Below are positions 1,347 to 20,970 of a DNA stretch of 21,177 nt, in pieces. Position numbers and translations under genes: made by a program. Under the pieces are notes generated by a model. The model was not told the origin of the DNA and ran no database searches. It saw nothing but the letters and a program-made list of their open reading frames with translations. How positions within the stretch are numbered: the first letter of the stretch is position 1; the number at the start of each line of letters is the position of its first letter. Origin of the DNA: Patellaria atrata CBS 101060 (taxonomy: Eukaryota > Ascomycota > Dothideomycetes > Patellariales > Patellariaceae); contig MU006089.1 in assembly GCA_010093705.1 (NCBI GenBank), positions 661,577 to 682,753 of the forward strand. The letters are read 5' to 3'.

Positions 1347-3513
1347 TTACTTCTTCAGTGTCGGCTTGGCTCTAATATAAACCTCACTTATAGGGTCTAT
1401 ATTAGAGCGCTCCCATCTTACCCATTCGCCTATACCGAACTCTGGTGGTGCTCGTCTCACGCCTCTCCCACCGCCTCCACAGATTAGGTTCCCTGGCCTA
1501 TACGTGGGATCTGCCTCCATCCGTCTCAGAACGGAGTTGTGGACGATGACTTCGTCAGGAATATCCCGGACCTCACCCTTCGGTAATGGCCAAGTGATAC
1601 TCTTCCATGAACCATCTTCCTGTAAGTCCATCCTACGGAAGGGTAAATACTCCATGATATTCCAAGAAATAACGGACAAACGTGGAAGACCATTGTTGAA
1701 TTGGAGTACATCATGGATTTTCCCTCGAGTCGCAGCTGCATGAAGGATTCGATTGAATTCAGACGTCACATCATGATGTAGAGAACTGGGATTAGGATGT
1801 TGTATTAAACGTGGTGCTCCACTTTCCGGGTCAGGAGAAGCGGGGTCAATTTCTATCTGGGGGATTGGTGCTCCAGGAGGTCCCTCGGAAGTCATCTCAA
1901 AATCCAGACAGCAGTTCAACCTTTGAAGTTTGGTCTCATCGAAGCGAAGGCCAGCGCGCTGAGCTTCTTGCACCATCCATACGAGAGGTACATGGCTCAA
2001 TGCGGCGTCTTCTCCATCATGTAAAGGCAAACCACCGCCTATGTCCTAATGCGAATTAGTAGATGAACCACATATTTTCCACTGGGAACGATGGAGTTTG
2101 TAGTTGCTGTACACTCCCTACCAGTAAAATTAATTACCATTGTACAATCTGCCGAAACCGGGTAGTGGGCCGATATTGACCATGTTTGTACAGCCAGTGT
2201 AAGTAAAGCGAGGAGCGCTAATTTCGAATAAAAGAATATTATATGTTTGGGTACTTACAGCGTGACATCCTGGAAACCATACTTCTAATATATCCTGCTC
2301 TCGCTCCTCACCCGAGTCCGAATCCTCGTAATGCTTAATCTCCAGAACGGATGTCTGGGATATGGAGGTCAAATGCGATTCATGCCCACTCTGAAAGCTC
2401 GCCCTACGGTAATTAGGGCTTAATGACCGCACACCTGATACCTCCGATGGATCTCGAAATTTTTCAAGCAAGGTGGGTCTCAAGTCATTTCTAGCCGGCT
2501 TTTTATAGCGATGATCCTCAGTAACAGGCCCTCCACGAGGAATATCATCGTCCCCTTGTCCGGCCGTAATAGCGGAGGACGTCGCATGCCAATACGATCG
2601 TCGACGATGGTGTTTTTTCTTACATCTGACCTCAGAAATCAGATCCTGACGAAACTTGGCACGACGTTCATCGATAGCAACGGCATGTCGAATGACCTTA
2701 GCTGAGCTACGAGCTGTGTAGGGAAACCTACTTCGCTGCATCCAGGCATTTTCGAAACGTGGGACGCTATTTACGGTATCAAACAGTCCAAGAAATCTGA
2801 TCCGGCGTACAGGTCTGCTGAATGTTTCTCGAAAAGCACACATGAATTCTAGCAACTGTCTCTTCTCTTTCTTATCCTCCTCTGTTTTATCTTCTCGAAT
2901 CTGCCAAGTCTGGAAAGTTTTCCAAGCGAATCGCGCCATCTCTTCATTACCAGGGGAAAGAAGGCCAACATGGTCTAGCATTTCAGCGAGGAACCGCGCT
3001 GTATACGCTCCACGTGAAAACCCAAAGAAAAAGATATCATCACCGGGTGTATAATATCTCATCAGGAACTTTGCTCGTTAGCCAAAACTAAAAGTATGGA
3101 GAGACTGATATATAATACCAACAATATCAACCTACCTTATACCCTCCCATGACATGTTCAGCGAATGACGAGCCAACAGCAGAGTCTTTTGCTTTAGCAT
3201 ACCATGACTTGATTTTGGACACCGTTGAGGTATGTGTGAAAGATGTTGTGGTCACATAGGTTCCGATTCCAGGTTGGTAATAGTGGAATTGAGAACCATC
3301 TGCTCGATCCATCATCCGGTAGATCTTCAAAATGTTTGAATCGGTGTCTGTTCCCGTAAAACGATTTCCGGTTCCATCGAAACAAAGAATGAATTTCTTC
3401 CGCTCTCTCTTTCCTACTCTTTTTGCCGGGTCATAATGTTCGTTGTTAGCTCCATTGGAAGGCGCATGTCGATTCGATGTAGTAGGTAGCTTCTCAGACT
3501 GGTTATTCGCCAT
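1347..3513 (-). CDS. DUF2235 (Tle1-like) alpha/beta-hydrolase, three exons
   Basis: Exons 3513-3136, 3068-2259 and 2045-1347 join in phase 0 throughout to give 628 aa; introns are 3069-3135 (67 bp, GCTAAC branch) and 2046-2258 (213 bp, GTAAGT donor, CTACTAAT branch). Domain landmarks in order: FILCFDGTGN (about 41-50), HYYQPGIGTY (77-86), the nucleophile elbow GFSRGAY with Ser144, GLFDTV with Asp223, and GCHADIGGG with His395 spanning the second splice junction. Together these give the Ser-Asp-His layout of the DUF2235 family. In bacteria the family includes type VI secretion phospholipase effectors; fungal members are cytosolic or of unknown role, so the substrate here is unknown. Residues about 279-385 form a basic then acidic, probably disordered insert between Asp and His. 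No signal peptide. The splice joins restore conserved motifs, so the gene looks intact. Confidence 0.93.
2046..2258 (-). other. Unusually long intron 2 of the DUF2235 gene
   Basis: Donor GTAAGT and branch/acceptor CTACTAATTCGCATTAG give a 213-bp intron, four times the local norm. It joins GCHA to DIGGG, a contiguous conserved motif. Inside are a second AG (after GAAATTAG) and a second donor (GTAATT) that frame an 80-nt pseudo-exon. Eighty is not a multiple of three, so inclusion would shift the frame. Confidence 0.85.
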
Positions 3514-5481: not shown

Positions 5482-6310
5482 CTAGTCTAGCTTCAACGGT
5501 TTATATATCTCCTCAATCCCGTCTTTCGTGATGATGAACATTTGTAACCCATCACCAACCTCAATATGCCTCTCCACCGCACTCGAAAACGCATCCTGCA
5601 CCAACTCCTCTACATCCTTCCTAGGTAATAGTTCCCGTTCCCTCGCCTGCAATGCATGTCCCTCGCCACTTCCTAGCACATACTGATTTTTGTAATTGAC
5701 CTGATTATCCAAAAACGGCATGATCAGACTGGCCGCCGCGCCTGCTGCCCTACACTGCTCGCGCTCATAGCTGCCCACCGGGTCGTAACTGTATAGTGCG
5801 CCTTTGCCCTCCTCATCCAATCCACCTAAGATCGCGGTTACATAGTAGGGGAAGAATCGTTTTTGATAGAGGATGTGCGAGAGTCGTTGTGCGCAGGCGG
5901 CTACGGACATGGGTTTACCATGCTGGTAGCGATACATCTTGACGATAGTATCAAGACGCTCTTTTAGGGCCAAGCCGTCGGCGGCAAATCCGACTACGGA
6001 GAGCACGATGCGAGAGTCTGCACCACCAACTTTGAAGAGTTTGGGCGCGAAGCGGGTGTTGATATTATAGCCGGAGGTGGAGCGGGTGTCACCAGCGAGA
6101 ATTGCGAAGTCGGCTCCTGTGATGCCGAGTGTGCTGCCGCCGTTATCGGTATAGCTATAGATGGATTAACACAAGTACTATGAAGAATTATAGCATATCT
6201 TACGGGTAGAAGCCGTGCTGTCTTGTACCCTCTGGAACGGTTGTGGGTGTTTGTTTGAAGGAGTAACCAGGGCCGCTTTGTGGAGGAGCGGCGGTGAATA
6301 TGGAGCCCAT
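5482..6310 (-). CDS. PRE7: 20S proteasome subunit beta6 (PRE7/PSMB1 type)
   Basis: Exons 6310-6204 and 6154-5482 join to 780 nt, 259 aa, with a 49-bp intron (6155-6203; GTAAGA...TAG) splitting codon 36. The yeast and human subunits are about 241 aa, so the length fits. Landmarks: GGSTLGITGADFAILAGDTR (41-60), VVGFAADG, KRFFPYYV, DPVGSYEREQCRAAGAAASL, MPFLDNQVN and ERHIEVGDGL near the C-terminus. These are diagnostic of beta6, a non-catalytic subunit of the inner rings of the 20S core that degrades ubiquitinated proteins in nucleus and cytosol. The catalytic N-terminal Thr of beta1, beta2 and beta5 is not expected here. The gene is divergent from the HCNGP-like gene with 236 bases between start codons. 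Coding strand is C-rich at the 5' end and G-rich at the 3' end. Confidence 0.97.
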
Positions 6311-6546: not shown

Positions 6547-7536
6547 ATGTTGAATCTCACAAATTATGATAGTAGCGATGAGGAGGCATTGGAGCCACCA
6601 CAGCAAGAGGTAACACGCCCTCATTATCTGCATAGAGCTGTTAGGCGGGTATCTACTAATGGAAAAGGCTGTAGACGAAATCGCAAGAAGTAATACAACC
6701 CCCAAAGATCAATAGACTAGTCAATTGTACGAAATCGAATAATGGGAGTTTTGATGATAAGCTAATGATATGTAGCTACTCTTCCAGCGAGCTCGTCTGC
6801 GCAAAAACCACTTTCAACACCCACTTCTACAGTGACATCAATTGATGTCCCAGTCCCTGATGCAACTCCATCAGGACCGTCTTTGGGGCCTTCAGCACCT
6901 CCTACAACTCAAGAGACTGTCACAGAGAATGAATCAGCATCGGCCCAATCCCCATACTCCTCGACTAGGGCTACAATCCGCAACCTTACCATGCCGTCCG
7001 TACCTAACTTTGAGATCCCTCCATCACCGCCTGGCTCGCCACCACGCGGGTCCACAGCGAAATTTGCGCGCTTTTTAGAACTTAAAAAGCAGGGCGTTCA
7101 TTTCAACGAGAAACTAGAGAAGTCAACGGCCTTACGGAATCCTAGTTTGTTACATAAGCTGATGGACTTTGCTGGAATTTCGGAAGAAGACTCTTATGCT
7201 TCTACTTTATCACTTGATCTAGCGATTCCAACGAAGTTTCCAGAGTATGCATATGCGGAGGAGCTGAATAAGAGCCAAGCGCTTATCAGGGAGCGAAGAG
7301 AGAAAGAGAAAGCTGTAAGGAGAGCTCAAGGAGAACAAGTCGAGTTTGTTCCGTCTAGAACATTGGGACATTCAAACCGTACCAGTACGCCTACCAGTGG
7401 CAAGGGCTCAAGAGATAGCACGTCGGAGAGGGTTATGGCGACTTTGAATCAAGGTAAATCTGAACGGGGTTGGGAAGGTGGAAGAAAATCGCGATTTGAT
7501 GATACTAGAAGGAGAAGATCTAGATCGCCTAGATAA
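6547..7536 (+). CDS. HCNGP / SAP30-binding-protein-like nuclear protein, three exons
   Basis: Exons 6547-6609, 6675-6726 and 6776-7536 total 876 nt, 291 aa. The start MLNLTNYDSSDEE is the acidic opening typical of fungal HCNGP proteins (usually M-x-GLVxYxSSDEE). Introns are 65 bp (GTAACA, branch CTACTAAT) and 49 bp (GTACGA, branch GCTAAT). The 52-nt middle exon is needed to reach the open frame of exon 3, since skipping it breaks the phase. The core begins at about residue 119 with IPPSPPGSP, then AKFARFLELKKQGVHFNEKL and NPSLLHKLMDFAGI, then an acidic/aromatic stretch ending near 207. The C-terminus is basic with an SRFDD...RRRRSRSPR tail, suggesting nuclear, RNA- or spliceosome-linked work. 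SAP30BP in animals binds the SAP30 co-repressor and has been tied to splicing; the role here is inferred from family. Confidence 0.9.
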
Positions 7537-7952: not shown

Positions 7953-8838
7953 ATGAACCACTTACCGCAAGCATGGGGTCGCGTACGTATAAGTCAATTC
8001 CTAAGGCTTGAGACTTTGGATTAATTATTTATAGCCTCGTGATGATGTCTATGGACCATACAACAACTCATATCTCCAAACATCCGGTCCCAGCCAACAT
8101 ACTCAATCCCCCATCGTCACCGGAACCTCGGTCCTCGCCATAAAGTTCAAAGATGGCGTCGTAATTGCAGCCGATAATCTCGGTATGTCCAACCCTCACA
8201 TATCTCCAAACCCCAACTAACACCATCTAGCATCATACGGCTCCCTCGCCCGCTTCACCGACGTCAAGCGTCTCCTCCGGTTCAACTCCCGCGCCGTCAT
8301 AGGCTTCGGAGGCGACGTCTCTGACATGCAATACCTAACCCGTCTCCTTTCCTCCCTCGAGATAAACGAAAACTACTCCGTAACCTCCTCCACCGAGCTT
8401 GCCGCCAATAACTTACACACCTATCTGCACAAAGTGATGTACAAGCGGCGCTCAGACTTCAACCCTCTGTGGAACCAGATTCTGATCGCAGGGTTGGATG
8501 TTGCGGACAATCCTTACCTCGCGAGCGTGGATCTGCTCGGTACTACGTTTTCGAGCCCGACGCTCGCAACAGGGTTTGGGGCTCATCTTGCCGTGCCGAT
8601 TATGAGACGAGTGTGTCCGGATGAGGAGGCTGCAAAGGAGTTGACGCAGGAACAGGCGGTGGAAACGGTTAGGGAGTGTATGAAAGTGTTATTCTATAGG
8701 GATGCGAGGAGTTTGGACAAGTACTCTATTGCTGTCGTCACTAAAGAAGGTGTAGATTTGAAGCATGGGGAGAAACTGGAGAAGCAGAGCTGGGCTTTTG
8801 CAGAGGGCATTAGAGGGTATGGTACACAGGTCAATTGA
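7953..8838 (+). CDS. PRE4: 20S proteasome subunit beta7 (PRE4/PSMB4 type), three exons
   Basis: Exons 7953-7982, 8035-8182 and 8231-8838 total 786 nt, 261 aa. Introns of 52 bp (GTACGT...ATAG) and 48 bp (GTATGT...CTAAC...CTAG) restore the frame exactly. Landmarks: a short propeptide ending near [13 protein letters not shown] (31-43; yeast mature beta7 starts at the equivalent TQ), [18 protein letters not shown] (51-68) across the second splice site, [46 protein letters not shown], and the terminal GIRGYGTQ. This is the non-catalytic beta7 subunit, whose C-terminal tail helps lock the two half-proteasomes together. It lies less than 2 kb from beta6, its neighbour in the ring. The coding strand turns from C-rich to G-rich along exon 3. 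Confidence 0.97.
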
Positions 8839-9649
8839 GCGGTTGGGGACGAGATCATAGAAGGTGATGCTCGATAAGAAAGAACTGGATGTTAGGCCGC
8901 TATTTGAGTGGCAAATAATACCAATCATCTCGATAAGATTCGTAGGTCCTTTGTGATTTTGGAAGATCTATCCCTTGCGGCTGTATTGGATGCGACCGCA
9001 AATCGATCGAACGCGTCATGCGTAGGATACTTTTACTTGGAATCCTCGGGTTATGAACGGGAGTCGTCAATGAATAGGCTTTCATTAATAGAGAGTAGTG
9101 ACCCTCCAATACTAGATCGTTCCATTGTTCCTCCTTTACGTTAGAATCGTCTTCTTTATTGCTTCCTTCTATACGAACAGTGACCGAACAGATACTTCAT
9201 TTACCTACTTCTTACCACAACCGCAAAAGAGCGATTCCATGCCCACAGTTGAGCGAGCTGCAATGCTACAGTTAAACCGTCTGTACGACCACATTTTGGG
9301 GAGTCGTTTACCCACAGCCAGCCCGAATCATACGGCTCAGATACGGTCGTAACTCAGTAACCCGCAAGGCTCAGATACGGCCGCAGCTCAGTGTTTCGTA
9401 CAATCCCAGCTCCAAGATCGATCGAGCATCACATACAGCGATAACTAGAGCCTTACTGAACCGAACCGAGTCAGTGTGGGTGGCCACCTAAAAGGAGAAA
9501 TGAAGTAGATGTAGAACTGATAAGTGTTCTGGTATCCCCCGGCTTCTCTAGTGTGTTGTAAAGTATTGGGAGCTTTGGTTTCCTTCTCCCGTACCTCCTC
9601 CACCATTACTTTGTATTATACGTACTTCCCAATCCGTCTTTCTATTTTA
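8839..9649. other. Intergenic, no gene recognised
   Basis: PRE4 3' flank followed by short open frames on both strands (8908-9144 plus, 8900-9109 minus, 9125-9352 plus) without family motifs. A two-copy tandem repeat is listed separately. Confidence 0.55.
9334..9392. repeat. Two-copy tandem repeat, 34-bp period
   Basis: GGCTCAGATACGG followed by a variable CG-rich part and CTCAGT occurs at 9334-9358 and again at 9368-9392. About 22 of 25 bases agree, and the differences are transitions. No function is apparent. Confidence 0.7.
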
Positions 9650-12657: not shown

Positions 12658-13721
12658 CTGTAAATTGAACTTAGAGTTAGTGAATCAATGAGGTTTCCTC
12701 AGACAATGCATTATCAGTGATCGGCTCTTCAAAACTCACAACCGAACATTCGTTAGGCGATATTATGGATACATTTATTGGGCAAGATACCTTCCATGTC
12801 TACCCTTGGTATATGTTCTGACACTCGAAGAAGACTTGGGTGCCTCCCATGAGAAGTACTTCGGATAGACTGAGTTCACATACCCATTATAACCTATATT
12901 GTCGGAATTGAGGTTCCGGCAATGTGTTTGAGACGGCTGGTATGCTACAATAGAGATGGCTGGATAGGCAAAGGTTCAAGATAGCATTAGTGACTGCAGG
13001 ATGTTAGATAATCAATGAATACTTTACGCCTTTCCTTTTACCCACTCACCTCATACCTGTGTGTCTATCCAAGTAAGCAAGACAATCGGTGAGTGTGTAT
13101 GCGGCTACACCTGTATCTACTCTGAATACTTATCTATATCAAGCACTCAAGACACGATCCGTTGAGTAGTATCTTTCGCACGGAGTGGTTTCCATATTGC
13201 GGAATACTTCACATAAATAGATACAATCCTCCTTCCCTCTCCTGCTGGAGTGCTCCCTTATGGCCATATATCCATAGTGTGCCCAGTACTGGCCTGCATT
13301 TGTACAGTACTGTCTATCTCCATAGACTCCAATGCTATATGAATTGTGATAGCAAACTTCAACCATACGTGAAATTGTACATTGGCAAGGGGAAGCCTTC
13401 AATGAATTTGGTGTTATCGAAACACAGGATAGTAGCTGCGTCGGACCCTTTTTACGGGGTATTATATAGGCTGCACAAGGGGGGATTGTCGGTCAATCGT
13501 AGTTGGATGGAAGTAGGGAATGTTCGCGCTCAGTGTCTGTGAATAGATACTCATGGAGCATATGTTTCAAGAAATATCAAGGCTTTAATTGTCTGAAAAT
13601 GATTCATATTTTAAAAAATAATTGTCGAAAGAATTAGTTTTGAAGGTGCGCAACAAAGCATTGGGCAAGGGGTAAGCGAGAGTGTGGTTTGAGAGTTCAT
13701 TTGCTTGGCGCATAATGTAAG
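12658..13721. other. Intergenic upstream of U6
   Basis: Contains overlapping open frames at 13139-13402 (minus, Cys-containing) and 13162-13542 (plus), neither with a convincing start context, signal peptide or splice structure. No repeat or further RNA gene was recognised. Confidence 0.5.
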
Positions 13722-13735
13722 TTTATTTACAAATA
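13722..13735 (+). promoter_or_regulatory. TATA-like element of U6
   Basis: TTTATTTACAAATA sits about 15-30 bases before the inferred U6 5' end, roughly where U6 genes carry a TATA box for TFIIIB. AT-rich surroundings make the call tentative. Confidence 0.4.
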
Positions 13736-13807
13736 ATTTTAAGTTCTATTTGCCTTCGGGCATTTGGTCAATTTGAAACGATACAGAGAAGATTAGCATG
13801 GCCCCTG

Positions 13808-13856
13808 GTAAGTAATTAATCAAGTCCAACGTTCGAATCCCGCTAACGTCAATTAG
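13808..13856 (+). other. 49-nt spliceosomal intron inside U6
   Basis: Donor GTAAGT is the mRNA consensus, the branch site is GCTAAC (13842-13847) and the acceptor is ATTAG. It interrupts the loop region of the internal stem-loop, next to the catalytic core. Introns in U6 are known from Schizosaccharomyces and several other fungi. The precursor must be spliced before it can act in splicing. Confidence 0.93.
13830..13840 (+). promoter_or_regulatory. RNA polymerase III B box within the U6 intron
   Basis: CGTTCGAATCC matches the TFIIIC B-box consensus GGTTCGANTCC at all positions but the first. It lies inside the intron, as reported for Schizosaccharomyces U6, so the mature RNA lacks it. In budding yeast the U6 B box is instead far downstream of the gene. 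Confidence 0.85.
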
Positions 13857-13896
13857 CACTAAGGATGACACGCTCAATCAAAGAGAAGCTACAAGA

Positions 13897-13903
13897 TTTT
13901 TTT
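13897..13903 (+). terminator. RNA polymerase III T-run terminator of U6
   Basis: Seven consecutive T residues directly follow the U6 3' end, as expected for polymerase III termination. Confidence 0.9.
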
Positions 13904-14388
13904 ATTTGCAATATTCCTACTCAGTCAACTTTTGCCCCCTGCGGTACTGACTTGGCGACTTGGCCTGATTAGCAATTACGCTTGTGAATCCGGTACCCTA
14001 CCTAGTCCTAGCCTTCCCTCCTAGATTCTTTACTTTTAGTCTATCCTACTTCTCGTCTTCCCATAACACGACTATCTGCATTATGCTGAAATAATCATTA
14101 CGACTGATATGATGTGGTAAAAGTAATTTATTGAAGAAATGGTATGATAGTGCTGTACTTTCGCTATATATCACTTTTCGGTGACATCCGTAGCTGGATC
14201 CTCCCCTGACTCTCTTTGTTTACCACTTCTTACAAGACGCGGTATTGGGATATACAACATGTCGGAAGTAGCTAGCATAAGATGCTTCCGGAGAAAACTA
14301 AGTCCTACTCTCTAAGTTCGAAAGTTGGACCTGATACTACCCCGTCTTGTATTTAGAAGAAATCTAGGCTCTCCATCTCCCGTTATAA
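13904..14388. other. Intergenic downstream of U6
   Basis: AT-rich, no open frame of note, no second RNA gene recognised. Confidence 0.55.
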
Positions 14389-14885
14389 CACTTAGGGCCT
14401 ACTAAAGATTTAATACGAGAAGGTATCCCACTAACTACACAAATTGGAGACATTTTACGAAAGGAAGAAGTTAATGATATTTTAGCAAACACATGCCATA
14501 TTAGAGTAACCGAAGAGTGCGAATTATTGTCATGGCTCAACCTCAGATGAAAGCTGAAAGGTATATTGCTATATGTACATGAAACTTAAACTTAAGGAAA
14601 GAAAATTTTGAGACAACATATGCTGTTCTACTAAAGTACAGTATGACTAAGCCGCTGGATCATCCAAGGTATTTATACCTATCGGGTCTAACCCGTCCGT
14701 GACAGGAAGAACTTAGCCATATTGCACAACTTATGGCCGCTGCAGGATACGGATATGAGCCTAGTGAAGACGAAAATTCGGATAGCACACCATATGATGA
14801 ACTGCCGGAGGATATGGCATCAGTCGAGGATGCTGAGAGTATTTCTACACCTATTTCTGGGGAACTGGTGTTGCCGCTTCGATAG
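14389..14885 (+). pseudogene. Family C copy 1: gene fragments
   Basis: Unknown family. An open stretch at 14389-14550 encodes PTKDLIREGIPLTTQIGDIL and then RKEEVNDILANT to a stop. It follows a possible acceptor (ACACTTAG) and has no ATG. A second exon-like stretch, 14706-14885, follows a plausible acceptor (branch TCTAACCC, GTGACAG) and reads EELSHIAQLMAAAGYGYEPS, then a long acidic Ser/Thr/Asp/Glu tail ending LVLPLR. The frame just upstream of the nearest donor (14663) holds a stop, so the two parts do not join cleanly. The motif E-E-x(4)-A-Q-L-M and its DNA (TTGCACA, CTTATG) recur at 16.4 kb on the same strand. Whether the two stretches belong to one gene is unproven. Confidence 0.4.
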
Positions 14886-20300: not shown

Positions 20301-20970
20301 CTTTTTAGTGCTAGAGTATTTGTTATGATCATAATTCTTATTCTTATGGCTGAAAACTTATCGCCAGGCTCTGCCATTTTGATGACTGACCCTATCCTAT
20401 ACGCTGTACTCGGGTTTGATGGAAAGGATGATACTGTGGACAAATTAGAAGTTGGTGGTAGAAAATGCGGAGATACCTAAGCGTAATTAATCCGTGTGCA
20501 TGTCATAGAATAATTGAACCGTTCAGATGCTCGTAATCAACATGGAGGCTATGACATAGACCGTAAGATTTATGGCCAACTAGTTCACAGGGACAACCCT
20601 CATGTGCACACATGTCTTCCCTACGCCACTTAAAATCTGTGGTTCGAGTCTTTCACCAGGGGATGTGAGATCTCATGTGGTTCTTACCCGGGTTTGAACA
20701 ACACGTGAGCAGATGGCTAATGCATGCAGGAGACGTGAACAAAGTAGAAGAGTAGATTCTACAAAAGATAACTAGATGTATGGCATAGAACTGGAAACCA
20801 AGAACCGATGGCAATGAGAAAGAATAGATGCTTCTACAATTTCCTCTATATGGATTTTAGAGGTCTTAGCTTTCCTTTGTAAATAATATTAGTGGACTAA
20901 GCCACTAGAGACTTCACTAAGCATATAAGGGCCCTGAAAAGGGATTTATGTATAAGGGTCTTGTTCAAGC
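20301..20970. other. Intergenic, nothing recognised
   Basis: Includes a GGTTCGAGTC motif at 20641 resembling a B box, but no tRNA fold around it, and a small hairpin TAGTGG-ACTAAG-CCACTA at 20890-20907. Confidence 0.45.

Follow-up and report, generated by a model that had tools for sequence, protein, structure and literature searches.

A U6 snRNA gene of Patellaria atrata CBS 101060 with a near-consensus B-box match inside its mRNA-type intron

A U6 snRNA gene on the forward strand of the window, by which we mean the whole 21,177-base stretch of DNA that was analysed, is interrupted by a 49-nt intron with mRNA-type splice signals, and this intron contains a match to the B box that is better than chance. 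We consider it likely, with a probability of roughly 0.78, that this is a working U6 gene transcribed by RNA polymerase III (Pol III), with its B box in the intron and with the intron being removed by the spliceosome. The arrangement itself is of a known kind and is probably found here in a further fungus. The following features, all on the + strand, make up the gene:

13722-13729, + strand: TATA-like TTTATTTA, located some 28 to 21 bp before 13750 (from the sequence; weak evidence)
13749-13807, + strand: U6 exon 1 with the 5' stem-loop, the ACAGAGA box and the 5' side of the internal stem-loop (RF00026 match at 13752-13807)
13765-13775, + strand: A-box match TGGTCAATTTG (pattern TRGYNNANNNG), the sole + strand match in 13700-13920
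13808-13856, + strand: 49-nt spliceosomal-type intron, GTAAGT ... GCTAAC ... TTAG, between the two U6 matches
13830-13840, + strand: B-box match CGTTCGAATCC inside the intron, with 1 mismatch to GGTTCGANTCC (equalled in 19 of 20,000 shuffles)
13842-13847, + strand: branch-site match GCTAAC (sequence match)
13857-13903, + strand: U6 exon 2 with the 3' side of the internal stem-loop and the 3' tail to the T run (sub-threshold RF00026 match; alignment of the joined exons to the L001 U6)
13897-13903, + strand: run of seven T, the likely Pol III terminator (from the sequence)

The 5' part of the gene was identified in an Rfam search of the whole window, in which the U6 model RF00026 matched 13752-13807 on the + strand with 51.9 bits (E = 1.2e-10). 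This match spans model positions 1-63 of 105, is by itself above the gathering score of 44, and shows no change at Rfam consensus positions 33-63. The true 5' end of exon 1 could lie a few bases before 13749. When the threshold was relaxed, the model aligned from position 66 onwards to 13856-13900 with 20.8 bits (E = 0.34), which is below the gathering score; this match, together with the alignment of the joined exons to the L001 U6, shows that the 3' side of the internal stem-loop and the U-rich end are present. No further U6 match was found in the 21,177 bases, even at the relaxed threshold.

The L001 gene was obtained by scanning collections of viral and genome contigs with an exact 28-base U6 pattern, which had no site in the viral contigs and one site in the genome contigs. 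This site belongs to a full-length, intronless U6 gene (L001, 2255-2359), which served only as an intronless reference. Since its contig is filed as a Verrucomicrobiaceae MAG, L001 is probably foreign (misbinned) eukaryotic DNA.

The homology to U6, as given by the two Rfam matches, breaks exactly at the 5' signal GTAAGT (13808-13813) and picks up again past the 3' signal TTAG (13853-13856), and the last A of GCTAAC is located 10 nt before the final intron base. The break in homology coincides with a GT..AG interruption and a branch site. A U6 gene split by a 49-nt intron with mRNA-type signals had been proposed in the first-pass annotation, and the two RF00026 parts flanking 13808-13856 bear out both this proposal and its coordinates. 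When the intron was folded alone, only a weak hairpin of -2.8 kcal/mol was predicted (minimum-energy fold).

When the window was scanned for possible introns of 42-90 nt with GTRNGT, CTRAC and YAG as required signals, nine rows of 48-85 nt were obtained, including the U6 intron; two of the others have a common 3' end. The candidate introns elsewhere in the window, which are unverified, have CTAAC or CTGAC branch sites; since the scan demanded GTRNGT, CTRAC and YAG, the likeness of the signals among the candidates is partly built in.

The remainder of the window contains two ORFs for proteasome beta subunits within about 3.4 kb of each other, one on the - strand (5482-6006; best PDB match yeast C5/beta type-6) and one on the + strand (8326-8838; best PDB match yeast PRE4/beta type-7), with an HCNGP-family ORF (6832-7536) between them. 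Two further ORFs at 2130-3513 on the - strand encode consecutive parts of a Tle1-like catalytic domain (PF09994) and are probably exons of one gene. A 25-nt direct repeat is present in two copies, 34 nt apart and 88% identical, at 9334-9392, and positions 1-1000 have a G+C content of 0.64, whereas the 20 remaining full 1-kb segments have 0.41-0.50.

The B-box match in the U6 intron begins at 13830, where the 11-mer CGTTCGAATCC is preceded by 22 intron bases, and GTTCGAATCC occupies 13831-13840. It is clear of all splice signals, with one base separating it from GCTAAC. To judge how often such a match arises by chance, we used two comparisons, counting in each the sequences that have a site with no more than a single mismatch to GGTTCGANTCC. 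Among 20,000 dinucleotide shuffles of the intron there were 19; among 41,454 other 49-mers, taken from both strands of the window and not starting in 13600-14000, there were 78, which stem from the sites at 8279 and 20641. The pattern GTTCGANTCC occurs once on both strands of the window, at 13831-13840, with 0.13 occurrences expected, and at least once in 11 of 100 shuffles. A looser pattern, GWTCRANNC, was found 16 times versus 11.4 expected, and 13 of 100 shuffles reached 16; not being clearly enriched, it carries little weight alone. Sites with no mismatch to GGTTCGANTCC are absent from the window, the intronic site itself having one. Both the pattern count and the shuffles indicate that the intronic match to the consensus is better than chance, and the earlier description of a near-consensus B box located 22 bases into the intron without overlap with the splice signals is upheld.

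On the two strands of the window, three sites differ from GGTTCGANTCC by no more than one base. Only the intronic one is preceded by an A-box match within 100 bp and also followed by a run of at least five T within 150 bp. The site at 20641 has A-box matches without such a run, while the site at 8279 has neither. Between 8289 and 16204, no other GWTCRANNC was found on either strand. The A box and the B box are 65 bp apart, start to start, and the run of seven T begins 67 bp after the start of the B box. A flexible linker of TFIIIC has been hypothesised to accommodate A-B spacings below 74 bp (review, PMC12409998), and the spacing seen here would suit a TFIIIC-dependent gene. The other elements are less informative: the A-box match is itself part of the U6 sequence and so adds no independent evidence, and the upstream region is A/T-rich with several TATA-like words, so that TTTATTTA is given little weight. 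Even the best B-box candidate on the + strand of 13898-14400 has 4 mismatches.

The joined exons align through the core with the L001 U6, with a single extra base near the junction, where the spliced product reads CACTAAGG and L001 reads CGCAAGG. Relative to L001, the extra base (within 13857-13863) is located in the apical loop of the internal stem-loop. In minimum-energy folds of the single RNAs, a CCU/AGG stem is common to the spliced RNA and L001, closing a predicted loop of 6 bases (GCACTA) in the former versus 5 (GCGCA) in the latter, and the exon junction is predicted to follow the first base of this loop. For the unspliced RNA, the CCU/AGG stem is not predicted. The spliced RNA was folded as a short excerpt, in which the remainder of the internal stem-loop is predicted to be unpaired. 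None of the other splice boundaries that would restore the standard loop length has GT..AG, as read by eye. Filamentous ascomycete U6 RNAs carry CACTAAGG at the same loop position. The ACAGAGA box, the AGC triad and the bulged U have functional roles in U6. The first-pass annotation had placed the intron at a catalytically sensitive position in the internal stem-loop; it does lie in the internal stem-loop, but "catalytically sensitive" overstates the case, since the predicted fold puts the junction in the apical loop, away from all three of these elements.

Many independent intron insertions are said to have occurred in fungal U6 genes. The window appears unlike fission yeast in base composition and in the 3' tail of U6. 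The title of Canzler, Stadler and Hertel (2016) states that U6 introns arose repeatedly in fungi, and the present gene resembles the fungal U6 genes of that work in having an intron in U6. An mRNA-type intron carrying a B-box match in the U6 genes of Schizosaccharomyces is indicated by the titles of Tani and Ohshima (1989) and Frendewey et al. (1990), both as cited in PMC10484740, and PMC8917221 describes S. pombe U6 as a Pol III product with an intron excised by the spliceosome. The gene reported here is like that of Schizosaccharomyces, as far as these titles and excerpts go, in combining a U6 gene, an mRNA-type intron and a B-box match within the intron. The first-pass annotation had also attributed the arrangement to Schizosaccharomyces, and the Frendewey et al. 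(1990) title just mentioned bears this out. No description of an intronic U6 B box outside Schizosaccharomyces was found in the literature searched, in which subscription papers are thinly covered.

The S. cerevisiae U6 gene, SNR6, is not known to contain an intron. Its promoter is described as containing a TATA element, an intragenic A box and a B box, with involvement of TFIIIC (excerpts of PMC11346459), the B box being located downstream of the terminator (excerpts of PMC11346459 and PMC1796607). On this partial description, the gene in the window is like SNR6 in having a TATA-like stretch, an intragenic A-box match and a B-box match, and unlike it in the position of the last: since the best + strand site in 13898-14400 has 4 mismatches, a downstream B box of the budding-yeast type is not seen. 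One entry in a table of a Trichoderma review (PMC9518982) reads "U6 snRNA promoter with 1st intron" and is given as used for T. reesei, which suggests that practitioners already include an intron with a fungal U6 promoter; the table entry gives neither a reason nor a B box.

We weighed three other explanations. It is unlikely that the gene is a functional U6 whose intron is an ordinary one resembling a B box by chance, with transcription driven by the TATA-like stretch alone or by an unrecognised element. Such an explanation would fit with the reportedly many origins of U6 introns in fungi (Canzler et al., 2016, title) and with the abundance of loose matches in the window, but a match this good is rare within 49 nt by both of the comparisons given above, the motif was expected beforehand from fission yeast, and the + strand of 13898-14400 has no B-box site below 4 mismatches. 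U6 pseudogenes are common in some genomes, and the count of U6 genes here refers to the 21,177-base window only; if this were a pseudogene or a minor copy and the RNA came from another U6 gene, the one additional base in the apical loop of the spliced form might also be accounted for. However, this base falls in a loop, Rfam consensus positions 33-63 are unchanged, and the splice signals and the T run are intact, and we regard a pseudogene or minor copy as very improbable.

The T arm of tRNAs has a sequence resembling TTCGAATCCCGC. The intron or its B box might accordingly derive from a tRNA gene or a tRNA-derived element inserted into U6, which would concern the origin of the intron only and is compatible with a working Pol III gene. 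Besides the T-arm resemblance, a pair of A and B boxes at 20573-20651 in the same window would speak for such an origin. Here A-box matches (20573 and 20581) precede GGTTCGAGTCT at 20641 with tRNA-like spacing, no run of five or more T follows within 150 bp, and the sequence may represent a decayed tRNA-derived element or chance. In contrast, the intron by eye lacks the 5' side of a T stem and folds alone as weakly as noted above, and ARAGORN found no tRNA genes in the window, which counts against a tRNA origin. The chance of such an origin appears slim indeed, a shade below that of a pseudogene.

We therefore favour a working Pol III gene with its B box in the intron, having counted against it that the loose B-box pattern is common, that the A box is not independent, that several TATA-like words lie upstream, that the 3' match is sub-threshold, that the loop has an extra base, that the L001 U6, the one other U6 found, is intronless and that a second U6 gene without an intron may exist elsewhere in the genome. 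The confidence is also slightly reduced by the fact that the downstream search with the stricter B-box pattern covered the + strand. The gene anatomy and the rarity of the B-box match are seen in the sequence itself, whereas we infer Pol III transcription by way of the B box, splicing, and retention of the intron for its promoter. RNA polymerase III would transcribe the gene with the A/T-rich TATA-like stretch and the A box near the start, while TFIIIC would be anchored by the B box within the 49-nt mRNA-type intron. The spliceosome would then excise the intron, so that both halves of the internal stem-loop become connected via the apical loop. Since the B box is read in the DNA, its loss from the RNA would cost nothing, and the intron would be retained because of the promoter it carries.

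The wider proposal that the intronic B box is not confined to fission yeast, and that other fungi also keep U6 introns for the TFIIIC site, is a tentative one, to which we give slightly less than even odds. For the choice of a fungal U6 promoter, it would mean that the upstream sequence by itself is without the B box. If the arrangement holds outside Schizosaccharomyces, promoter function would provide a simple and testable reason for the presence of an intron in an RNA that catalyses splicing.
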